Assembly: GCA_017521405.1 (NCBI GenBank)
Contig: JAFXCP010000027.1
Coordinates: 41,264 to 105,263 of the forward strand
DNA length: 64,000 nt
Direction: 5' to 3'
Source of the DNA: Akkermansia sp.
GTDB taxonomy: Bacteria > Verrucomicrobiota > Verrucomicrobiia > Verrucomicrobiales > Akkermansiaceae
Below are positions 61,848 to 63,620 of this stretch, piece by piece. Below the pieces are notes generated by a model. That model had not been told where the DNA came from and did not search any database. It saw only the letters and a program-made list of their open reading frames with translations. The position numbers and the translations under genes are program-made. Each line of letters starts with the position of its first letter. Positions within the stretch are counted from its first letter, which is position 1.

Positions 61848-61851
<4 letters not shown>

Positions 61852-62023
61852 TTATGGGAGCGGTCGTAACCAAGACAACATGGTAACGGCCGCTCCTTTT
61901 TTGTGCCCGGATTTCAGCGACTTATAAAATCGCAACTCATAACGAAAAACGGACTTTCGGGGCTGATTTTGCATCCATTTCGCCCCCGTTTTGCAGCCAA
62001 AACGACTCGCTTAGACTCGTGCG
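61848..62023 (+). repeat. 176-bp direct repeat, copy 1 (tRNA-proximal)
   Basis: It starts at the last 4 bases of tRNA-Met and matches 63445-63620 with no gaps and about 15 mismatches by hand alignment (about 91 percent). It contains the tRNA terminator hairpin and about 120 bp of further conserved non-coding sequence (including GGACTTTCGGGGCTGATTTT). No ORF runs through it. Confidence 0.9.
61857..61902 (+). terminator. Terminator of tRNA-Met (in repeat copy 1)
   Basis: A 15-nt imperfect stem (61857-61871 with 61882-61896) is followed by TTTTTT. The same structure recurs in repeat copy 2 at 63454-63498, where several stem positions differ but pairing is kept. Confidence 0.85.
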
Positions 62024-62038: not shown

Positions 62039-62053
62039 GAAAAACAATCAGAC

Positions 62054-62082
62054 TTGAGCGGGTGACCGCTATATGATAAAAT
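62054..62082 (+). promoter_or_regulatory. Promoter of the small hydrophobic peptide mRNA
   Basis: TTGAGC (62054-62059), 17-nt spacer, TAAAAT (62077-62082). The leader of about 130 nt is rich in structure: CCACCA/TGGTGG at about 62099-62116 and TCAGCGG/CCGCTGA at 62136-62142 with 62157-62163. Confidence 0.6.
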
Positions 62083-62221
62083 TTTCCTGCTCTTCCGCCA
62101 CCACTCGTCTGGTGGGTGGCCATGTCACCTCTCAGCGGGGAGTATGCCAGCCCTGTCCGCTGAAGTGATGTGTCCGCATGGGTACGGAACAACAGAGAAC
62201 TAGGTTGGAGGAGAATCGACT

Positions 62222-62299
62222 ATGAACTACCGTATCATGGTTGAGCTGATTATGCTCATCTTACAGGCGATATTGTTTGTCATGAACTTTATACGCTGA
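62222..62299 (+). CDS. 25-residue hydrophobic peptide, candidate type I toxin
   Basis: The encoded peptide MNYRIMVELIMLILQAILFV plus MNFIR is a single predicted TM helix with a basic last residue, like type I toxins of the Fst/Ldr/Ibs kind and holin-like small peptides. The Shine-Dalgarno GGAGGAGA (62207-62214, 7 nt from the ATG) is far stronger than those of surrounding genes, which are mostly leaderless. The 130-nt structured leader, the strong SD and the downstream RNA with complementarity to its SD and start (62418-62492) make a toxin-antitoxin pair the best explanation. It is too short to be caught by gene finders. No homologue can be named; toxicity is inferred. Confidence 0.65.
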   Translation: MNYRIMVELIMLILQAILFVMNFIR

Positions 62300-62383
62300 G
62301 CCTAATCGGCACCGTCCGGTGGGGGTGACTCCTCCTCCGGACACCTCTATGTATAACTCAACAGGATTTTTCAAAACAAAACA

Positions 62384-62411
62384 TTGACTTTTTAATGAAA
62401 AGTTCTATAAT
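62384..62411 (+). promoter_or_regulatory. Consensus promoter of the antitoxin-like small RNA
   Basis: TTGACT (62384-62389), 16-nt spacer, perfect TATAAT (62406-62411), among the strongest promoters in the window. Transcription would begin at about 62418 and no ORF follows before the terminator. Confidence 0.8.
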
Positions 62412-62417
62412 GAGGTC

Positions 62418-62492
62418 GTCAGGAAACGGTAGTTCTGATAAACAATTCTCCTGAAACGCTCCCGCCTAGTCACCGGGGGCGTTTCTATTTTA
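62418..62492 (+). ncRNA. About 75-nt small RNA, candidate RNA antitoxin
   Basis: A short transcript is defined by the promoter at 62384-62411 and an intrinsic terminator (12-bp stem 62453-62464 with 62474-62485, then TATTTTA). Its 5' half carries ACGGTAGTTC (62426-62435), the exact complement of GAACTACCGT at 62224-62233 in the peptide gene, and ATTCTCCT (62445-62452), the exact complement of AGGAGAAT at 62209-62216 over the Shine-Dalgarno. The blocks are in the correct antiparallel order, with 9 and 7 unpaired nt between them. It would mask both SD and start codon, as in type I antitoxins, although it is encoded on the same strand as the target. Confidence 0.7.
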
Positions 62493-62524
62493 CCCCCTTG
62501 TGAACTTGTTCATGAATCCCCAGC

Positions 62525-62553
62525 TTGACTTACCGCTCCTTTTTCATTATACT
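62525..62553 (+). promoter_or_regulatory. Promoter of the EEP-family gene
   Basis: TTGACT (62525-62530), 17-nt spacer, TATACT (62548-62553), 12 nt before the ATG at 62566. This rules out the earlier GTG/ATG starts at 62500 and 62512 for this transcript. Confidence 0.75.
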
Positions 62554-62565
62554 CCCGGCATTTGC

Positions 62566-63246
62566 ATGAGGATTATCAGCTGGAATGCACAAGGGAAGTT
62601 TCGCGAGAAGTTTCCGGAAATCCGGAAGCTTTCGGGCGATATCTATATCATCCAGGAATGTGAGAATCCCTTGCATTGTCGTAACAGAGAGTACCGAGAA
62701 TTCGCTGCAGGCGGGTTATGGTGGGGAGATAACAAGAATAAGGGCTTGGGCATTTTTGTAGCACCTCATGTCAGCATTACAGATAACGCGTGGGAACCTC
62801 TTTGTCTTAGACAATTTGCATGCGTTCGTGTGAATGATAGCTTTGACCTGTTAGCTGTATGGGCAAAGTTTCGCTACATTGAGGAGTATTATATATACCA
62901 CCATCTGCACGCGTCCAAATATCACTCCCAAATGGTAGTAATGGGAGATTTTAACAGCAACAAGTGCTTGGACAAAAAAACGGGCAGAGGACAACGTAAC
63001 CATAGTTCAGTCGTTCAAATGCTGGCTGCCGCCGGATTATGTTCCGCATATCATCATATACAAAATGAGGCTCAGGGAGAAGAAAGTATACCCACTTTTT
63101 TTCTGCATAGACATGCCAATAGACCTTACCATATCGATTACGCTTTTGCAGCGCCCGAGCGCATACGCGACTGCTACATCGAAACGTTCACCAATTGGCT
63201 CGCAATATCAGATCATCGTCCTCTCATATTAGAAATTGAAGATTAA
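62566..63246 (+). CDS. Endonuclease/exonuclease/phosphatase (EEP) family protein
   Basis: A 226-aa cytosolic protein of the EEP/DNase I-like fold. It begins MRIISWNAQGKF (metal-binding Asn), then DIYIIQECENP (Glu ligand), MVVMGDFNSN (catalytic Asp and Asn) and ISDHRPLILEI (catalytic Asp-His), the complete active-site set. Substrates could be DNA, RNA, phosphoinositide-like or other phosphodiesters; none can be chosen. The sequence is AT-richer than the chromosome, indicating transfer. It lies inside the repeat-bounded cassette beside the toxin-like locus and may be a defence nuclease (inference). Confidence 0.85.
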   Translation: MRIISWNAQGKFREKFPEIRKLSGDIYIIQECENPLHCRNREYREFAAGGLWWGDNKNKGLGIFVAPHVSITDNAWEPLCLRQFACVRVNDSFDLLAVWAKFRYIEEYYIYHHLHASKYHSQMVVMGDFNSNKCLDKKTGRGQRNHSSVVQMLAAAGLCSAYHHIQNEAQGEESIPTFFLHRHANRPYHIDYAFAAPERIRDCYIETFTNWLAISDHRPLILEIED

Positions 63247-63444: not shown

Positions 63445-63620
63445 GCTATTATGGGAGCGGTCGTAACCAGGACAAAATGATAACGACCGCTCCTTTTTCA
63501 TGCCTGGATTTCAGCGACTTATAAAATAGCAACTCATAACGCAAACCGGACTTTCGGGGCTGATTTTGCACCCATGTTGCTCCCGTTTTGCAGCCAAAAG
63601 GACTCGCTTAGACTCGTGCG
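63445..63620 (+). repeat. 176-bp direct repeat, copy 2
   Basis: The same length as copy 1 with about 15 substitutions and no gaps. It retains the terminator hairpin (stem 63454-63468 with 63479-63493, then five T) but lacks the tRNA body upstream; only the terminal GCTA of the tRNA is included. Confidence 0.9.

Follow-up and report, generated by a model that had tools for sequence, protein, structure and literature searches.

A probably mobile same-strand peptide and small RNA module of Akkermansia that resembles a type I toxin-antitoxin system

Two putative transcription units, both on the forward strand, lie next to each other in the window, the whole 64,000-nucleotide stretch of Akkermansia sp. 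DNA that was analysed. The first opens with a putative toxin-mRNA promoter (TTGAGC-17-TAAAAT, 62054..62082, 9/12 consensus), followed by a structured 5'UTR element (62089..62195) delineated by an alignment of 17 copies, a covariation count and the model R1, which was built from those copies. A closing stem of this element joins the 5' end of the predicted mRNA to the stretch just upstream of the Shine-Dalgarno (SD) region and is accompanied by internal hairpins. The SD itself (GGAGGAGA, 62207..62214) precedes an open reading frame (62222..62299) for a toxin-like peptide of 25 residues with a single hydrophobic segment, MNYRIMVELIMLILQAILFVMNFIR. A hairpin predicted 3' of this ORF (62314..62342) is a possible weak terminator; it has no clear T tract, and GC-rich inverted repeats are seen by eye at the same place in relatives.

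The second unit is driven by a TTGACT-16-TATAAT promoter (62384..62411, 11/12 consensus), from which the start of a predicted small RNA (sRNA) antitoxin of about 75 nt (62418..62492) was deduced. Its region, 62418-62497, folds at -26.1 kcal/mol (z -3.16) into a 5' hairpin (62418-62439), a linker and a terminator hairpin with a 12-bp stem (62453..62485). A terminator scan was silent on the latter because its loop of 9 nt falls outside the 3-8 nt allowed; its T tract is also interrupted. The 5' hairpin contains antisense block 1 (ACGGTAGTTC, 62426..62435), an exact complement of 10 nt in codons 1-4 of the peptide ORF (GAACTACCGT, 62224..62233), and the linker carries antisense block 2 (ATTCTCCT, 62445..62452), an exact complement of 8 nt at the SD (AGGAGAAT, 62209..62216). 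An earlier note on this DNA had described the hydrophobic 25-codon ORF with its SD, the promoter and terminator stem of the small RNA, and both complementary blocks, and each of these elements is present as described. Searches for a catalogued RNA or protein family gave no model match: at the gathering threshold Rfam reported two tRNAs only in the window, and none of five peptides matched Pfam or NCBIfam.

The earlier note had also argued that two collinear matches at a translation start are unlikely by chance. This agrees with the window locus itself, where 20000 rounds of dinucleotide shuffling of the sRNA never produced both collinear blocks, and where the predicted duplex, at -31.3 kcal/mol, lies about 5 sd below the shuffled mean of -14.0 (sd 3.2), with 0/2000 shuffles as low. 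A complementary run of at least 10 nt alone occurs in 0.095% of 20000 such shuffles, a frequency that is not negligible genome-wide, so an unrelated ORF lying by accident beside an unrelated sRNA had to be weighed as an explanation. What decides against it is found in the relatives of the locus.

The window locus belongs to a multi-copy family. The same genome holds another copy, L002, as well as an extra sRNA, L003, and blastn of 59 genomes, 37 of them from the genus, matched 10, including the window's own, all of them of the genus. With R1, 58 elements were found in 25 of 77 genus genomes, and under its stricter filters the other 52 gave none. Across the order, R1 matched 20 of 387 sampled genomes, all in one genus of 50; this search covered a sample, and its filters lose weak matches. 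A DNA pattern run over named genomes retrieved 35 stretches, 32 of them labelled Akkermansia or Akkermansiaceae MAGs, many from the guts of goat, sheep, cattle, buffalo, deer and horse, and two (L126, L136) without a locus. These sources assign the window to a gut Akkermansia, broadly understood. One contig labelled Saccharibacteria (L116, JAUNRI010000039.1) carries a complete Akkermansia-type copy beside a phage ORF of 144 aa; the label is probably a binning error.

The order of parts recurs throughout: a weaker promoter, a structured 5'UTR of about 105-110 nt, an SD, a peptide of 23-25 aa, a hairpin, a stronger promoter and the sRNA. The sRNAs were searched with a second model, R2. An RNAalifold consensus of 29 sRNAs contained no pairs because several terminator types are mixed among them, and R2 was therefore made sequence-only; it gave 73 matches in 24 of the 77 genus genomes, the weakest of which, such as G079:C46 with its terminator part alone, are perhaps not sRNAs. 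Counting same-strand matches only, a linked sRNA lies behind 49 of the 58 5'UTR elements, its match starting 173-203 nt past the element in 48 loci and 107 nt past it in one. The same-strand, partly complementary and non-overlapping layout pointed out in the earlier note recurs at these 49 loci.

Same-strand placement at a conserved spacing, together with the missing T tract in the hairpin 3' of the window ORF, would also suit a cis-acting switch, in which the downstream element serves mainly as the 3' region of a read-through transcript and folds back onto the SD and start codon of that same mRNA, as happens in hok-type mRNAs. We regard this as improbable, since the element has its own near-consensus promoter and a terminator stem and is also found in tandem and in places where no toxin accompanies it. 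The anatomy of promoter and terminator recurs among the loci, as would befit an RNA antitoxin transcribed on its own. The sRNA promoters agree with consensus at a mean of 10.6/12 positions versus 8.5/12 for the toxin promoters, and the former mean is an underestimate because a first-TTGAC rule misplaced the sRNA promoter of five loci (L004, L013, L014, L034, L067). The toxin promoter was taken as the best of a small search range, and the best-scoring hexamer pair ends 6 nt upstream of the 5'UTR element in 31 of 39 loci.

Evidence that the two units belong together comes from the coevolution of their pairing sites. Codons 2-5, which make up most of block 1, are hypervariable among loci, and the linked sRNA changes alongside: where the window pairs GAACTACCGT with ACGGTAGTTC, other loci pair TGTCTGTAGT with ACTACAGACA, GCATGCTATC with GATAGCATGC, GCGCACAAT with ATTGTGCGC, or GAATCTTCG with CGAAGATTC, and in L011 the sRNA matches its toxin over 15 nt. 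Using one representative for each codon-2-5 sequence (26 groups, some one base apart) and 20000 permutations, the Watson-Crick run averaged 8.77 nt in cognate pairs versus 4.77 in permuted ones (sd 0.25, max 6.15; z 15.7), and block-1 duplex energy -17.2 versus -8.9 (sd 0.57). The SD block is likewise better paired in cognate combinations (-16.65 versus -12.75, sd 0.48, z -8.1). These z values are not exact probabilities, as related loci share history; shared history is no explanation of the pairing itself, because common descent alone creates no complementarity. The joint duplex reaches -35.4 kcal/mol over 35 distinct locus pairs versus -21.7 (sd 0.8; lowest permuted -25.5), the 35 remaining from 43 entries once duplicates were removed, with L008, L069 and L070 (the same pair as L009) and L046 (at a contig end) left out. 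Judged by run length, a group's own sRNA comes first in 20 of the 26 groups, and judged by block-1 energy in 22; in L042, L071 and L075 block 1 comprises just 6 bp, yet 9-10 bp form at the SD.

In most of the 26 groups the pairing covers the SD and codons 1-5. The earlier note had named lack of conservation of either pairing block among homologues as a refutation; pairing is in fact kept across 26 codon-2-5 sequences despite changed letters, and this covariation rules out a chance match, leaving that explanation with a practically negligible probability. That the sRNA base-pairs with the toxin mRNA is accordingly well grounded as a prediction, and the proposal of a type I-like toxin-antitoxin locus with a same-strand RNA gains support from both the covariation and the recurring layout. 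Specificity is at times shared: the sRNA of L007 is a perfect match to the window toxin and needs one G-U pair to match its own, and similar cross-recognition through G-U is seen for L014/L004 and MNIRIM/MSIRHM in a list that also includes spurious G-U-rich runs. New specificities may pass through such G-U pairs.

The peptide is conserved where it is not paired. Twenty-seven aligned peptides of 23-25 aa, well within the limit of 60 aa used for small hydrophobic type I toxins, share the consensus MxxxxMIELIxLILQxILFVMxxx, and that of the window has a GRAVY of 1.47, with 15-residue windows up to 2.6. Codons 7-21 show pN 0.17 / pS 0.61 over all pairs of 36 ORFs and pN 0.030 / pS 0.29 over 115 close pairs, versus pN 0.35 / pS 0.48 for codons 2-5 in the same close pairs. 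Such purifying selection argues that the hydrophobic core is a translated product, whereas the paired codons are free to change.

The 5'UTR appears to be structured as well. Scored on a hand-drawn five-helix structure, itself derived from the same sequences, the 17-copy alignment has a covariation score of 0.178 versus 0.116 (sd 0.011) in 500 shuffles and at most 0.076 in slid controls. The numbers of paired cells and of cells with double changes exceed all 500 shuffles; two of the five measures do not rise above them, namely pairs with a double change (8 versus 6.0, with 79/500 shuffles as high) and further pair types (20 versus 20.2), and in helix 3 just 66% of cells are paired. Folds show the SD partly open only. 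Mean predicted unpairedness is 0.40 at the SD and 0.57 at the start codons, neither below the mRNA mean of 0.33, and no clear built-in lock on initiation is therefore seen.

Copies that depart from the standard layout bear on what the peptide does. Among the nine elements without a linked sRNA, five stop 12-65 bases short of a contig end, and L077, likewise close to the end of its contig, has an internal deletion. L046 (G077:C20) and L054 (G031:C134) encode a full peptide, and their contigs continue for 219 and 231 bases, respectively, far enough to include the usual promoter position; no sRNA promoter can be recognised there. In these two copies the sRNA may be lacking or displaced, which would make them antitoxin-less or rearranged. 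L064, the sole copy that lacks an sRNA although long sequence follows it, has lost its start codon. The reverse case is common: 24 of the 73 R2 matches are extra sRNAs, not the nearest behind a 5'UTR element, nine of them in tandem behind another pair and 15 elsewhere. This asymmetry, a broken toxin where the sRNA is gone and many sRNAs present as extra copies, speaks for the type I reading. Its competitor is a non-toxic small membrane protein of phage or host, for instance a superinfection-exclusion or signalling peptide, under paired sRNA control and with no addiction. The accessory-gene location on phages described below would suit it, as would L046 and L054 if they are truly without sRNA, and the toxicity of the peptide is putative. 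Yet common sRNA-only copies and a broken sRNA-less copy form the pattern expected of a harmful product, and we consider a harmless peptide unlikely.

Many of the extra sRNAs match a known toxin start. Compared with 27 distinct toxin starts, 16 of the 24 show unbroken Watson-Crick complementarity over at least 9 nt versus 7.5% of dinucleotide shuffles, and 18 of 24 over at least 8 nt versus 22%; a further match outside the 73 (L024, G011:C7) was excluded from this test. Allowing G-U adds weaker cases such as G080:C49, whose loop is identical to that of L017. Within the same genome, a match of at least 9 nt was found for G068:C10 only (with one G-U), and G068:C39 has 8 nt; this scarcity is provisional because the genomes are drafts and the hand-made toxin list for each genome leaves out some toxins at contig ends. 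The extra sRNA of the window's own genome, G000:C10, with a promoter that appears decayed, matches the MHAIDM toxin of G010, G011 and G076. No target was assigned to the extra sRNAs of G023 and G010:C139, that of G007:C77 belongs to the second family described below, and that of G079:C46 is a partial match. The tandem sRNA of L007 (G023:C3:37359-37449) has a loop that matches none of the toxin starts found here at 8 nt or more and may hint at an as yet unseen type of toxin. The extra sRNA of L022 (G009:C44:18260-18369) fits the MNYRIM codons over 11 nt and has its lowest duplex energy, -54.5, with MHAIDM; it is possibly a hybrid with two targets. Upstream of three extra sRNAs lie toxin remnants: a truncated toxin (L078), one with neither start codon nor 5'UTR (L016) and one whose ORF is complete but whose 5'UTR element is missing (L108). 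It looks as if the toxin were the first to decay.

Some copies lie on phage contigs. Four IMG/VR contigs were found, two with the locus (L115, L152) and two with its 3' part (L151, L153); viral scans with the window-type terminator and with a second 5'UTR spelling found nothing, and 62040-62500 had no blastn match among 50,697 phage records or among 72,556 plasmid records. In L115, where PHROGs named tape measure, major head, maturation protease and portal genes, the locus sits between ORFs of 139 and 144 aa, adjoins the tape-measure gene and runs in the opposite direction to the structural genes; PHROGs gave the two flanking ORFs no name, and the label of a tail module therefore rests on position. 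L152 has one pair and a second sRNA whose loop fits the L115 toxin type. Of the 58 element loci, 7 have the 144-aa or the 139-aa ORF, complete or nearly so, beside the module, and 8 more have no more than an end fragment of one of them; most loci were checked over about 1.5 kb, so the remaining loci could still have such ORFs. The window copy bears a scar of the same kind directly after the sRNA: 62493..62525, on the reverse strand, is the end of the 144-aa phage ORF that flanks many copies. In blastn of 62480-62620 it matched L036 (97% over 32 nt) and L070 (91% over 45 nt), both beside a near full-length 144-aa ORF and with matches that begin within the terminator, and phage L115 (86% over 28 nt, E 0.003). 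Judged from these contigs and flanks, the module appears to ride on phages, with chromosomal copies retaining pieces of phage genes.

The surroundings of the window copy offer some further observations. A tRNA neighbourhood is seen here and, by eye, at L008. A 176-nt direct repeat (91%; 61848-62023 and 63445-63620), whose left copy begins at the 3' end of a tRNA-Met, brackets the module and its downstream gene, and a stretch resembling it lies, by eye, near L008 and L027. That gene (62566-63246) has a sub-threshold match to Exo_endo_phos (Pfam E 6e-4, below the curated cut-off), and its start also follows two other pairs in G068 (L065 and L074; 92% over 133 nt), as if the module had been swapped as a cassette in front of it.

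The architecture is not confined to one family. Through a single R2 match, a second family came to light at L111:580-925 (G007:C77), with a different leader and a different peptide, MRPITPTEAVMLEMLMELILLLSR (MRPITPTEA...), in the same layout and with an 11-nt match of the sRNA to codons 5-8. In L155 (G023:C40) one base of the block differs from L111 and the sRNA has changed correspondingly (ACACCAACGGA against ACCCCAACGGA); this locus also has a 10-nt SD block. A relative, L156, appears decayed. A DNA search for this family matched 7 of 77 genomes, with the locus in G007, G023 and G035 only, the other four matches being short, terminator-like and without a locus. A possible third arrangement is L161 (G007:C80), where a gene for a small peptide, MNTKNTEKLPVVSPWFTEYLIQLLIILMEVLR, precedes a promoter on the same strand and an RNA that contains the hairpin ACGCAAGCGGGGAAGCCCGCAAGCGT, and where no start-site pairing was found by eye; a similar RNA lies ahead of the L111 locus (L111:420-560).

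We think it very probable that the family is a mobile same-strand module acting like a type I toxin-antitoxin system. The weaker promoter would yield an mRNA with a folded 5'UTR that encodes the 25-aa membrane peptide, and the stronger same-strand promoter just downstream would yield the sRNA of about 75 nt. Acting in trans, the loop of its 5' hairpin would contact codons 1-5, and the linker would zip over the SD. Pairing of SD and start would most likely block initiation, and perhaps expose the duplex to RNase III; loss of the sRNA would presumably allow the peptide to damage the membrane, and the module may have an addiction or anti-addiction role. As codons 2-5 and the sRNA loop diverge together, many partly orthogonal pairs would come to travel on Akkermansia phages, and the orphan and tandem sRNAs would be retained antitoxins of lost or foreign toxins. 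The copy number, the structured 5'UTR, the phage location and these orphan and tandem sRNAs all go beyond what the earlier note had proposed.

Known systems resemble the module in part. Like it, tisB/istR-1, shoB/ohsC, zor/orz, dinQ/agrB and timP/TimR combine a small hydrophobic peptide, a long 5'UTR and an adjacent sRNA of limited complementarity. As far as the accounts of tisB/istR-1 and its like go (PMC4147584, PMC7667032), their sRNA is transcribed divergently and binds within the 5'UTR, at a distance from the start site, and timP/TimR is described likewise (PMC7667032); in the present module the sRNA is instead downstream on the same strand, pairs with the SD and codons 1-5, and has many coevolved codon sequences. 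Orphan loci with orz only, as outlined in PMC11264685, are a precedent for the extra sRNAs. The hok/sok, ldr/rdl, ibs/sib and fst/RNAII systems also join a hydrophobic peptide to an RNA antitoxin, often on mobile elements. Their complementarity arises from gene overlap, whereas here it must coevolve at two separate sites. Among type I loci on prophages, accounts name bsrG/SR4 and yonT/SR6 of SPbeta and loci of C. difficile phages; they are prophage-borne as here, occur in other phyla and rely on antisense overlap. Type III systems (ToxIN-like) have a same-strand RNA antitoxin that is located upstream and binds the toxin protein, a ribonuclease, whereas the RNA described here is complementary to an mRNA.

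By strand, the module is not a textbook type I member. The description of TADB 3.0 (PMC10767807) requires an opposite-strand antitoxin for type I, and a 2025 account (PMC12390103) likewise defines it so, whereas the antitoxin is on the same strand at all 49 linked loci, same-strand matches being those that were counted. A finder built on the opposite-strand rule would exclude the present layout. Where it surveys type I systems, PMC12390103 names Proteobacteria, Firmicutes and Tenericutes, to which it adds its own case in Cyanobacteria, and titles and abstracts of the open-access literature named none such in Akkermansia or Verrucomicrobia; if the type I-like reading is true, Verrucomicrobiota would be added to these phyla. 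The two sites that pair are encoded apart from each other in the DNA, which makes the 26 codon sequences a record of coevolution and the joint change of toxin and antidote directly testable. We tentatively entertain, at somewhat less than even chances, a broader view of a phage-spread, self-diversifying class of same-strand RNA antitoxins, in which specificity resides in about four free codons read by the sRNA loop, new pairs arise via G-U intermediates, and tandem and orphan sRNAs provide heritable RNA immunity (anti-addiction) against the toxins of rival phages; the second family would suggest a general architecture, missed because toxin-antitoxin finders require opposite strands. The phage location and the extra antidotes would also connect the module with conflicts in a gut genus, both among phages and between phages and their hosts.
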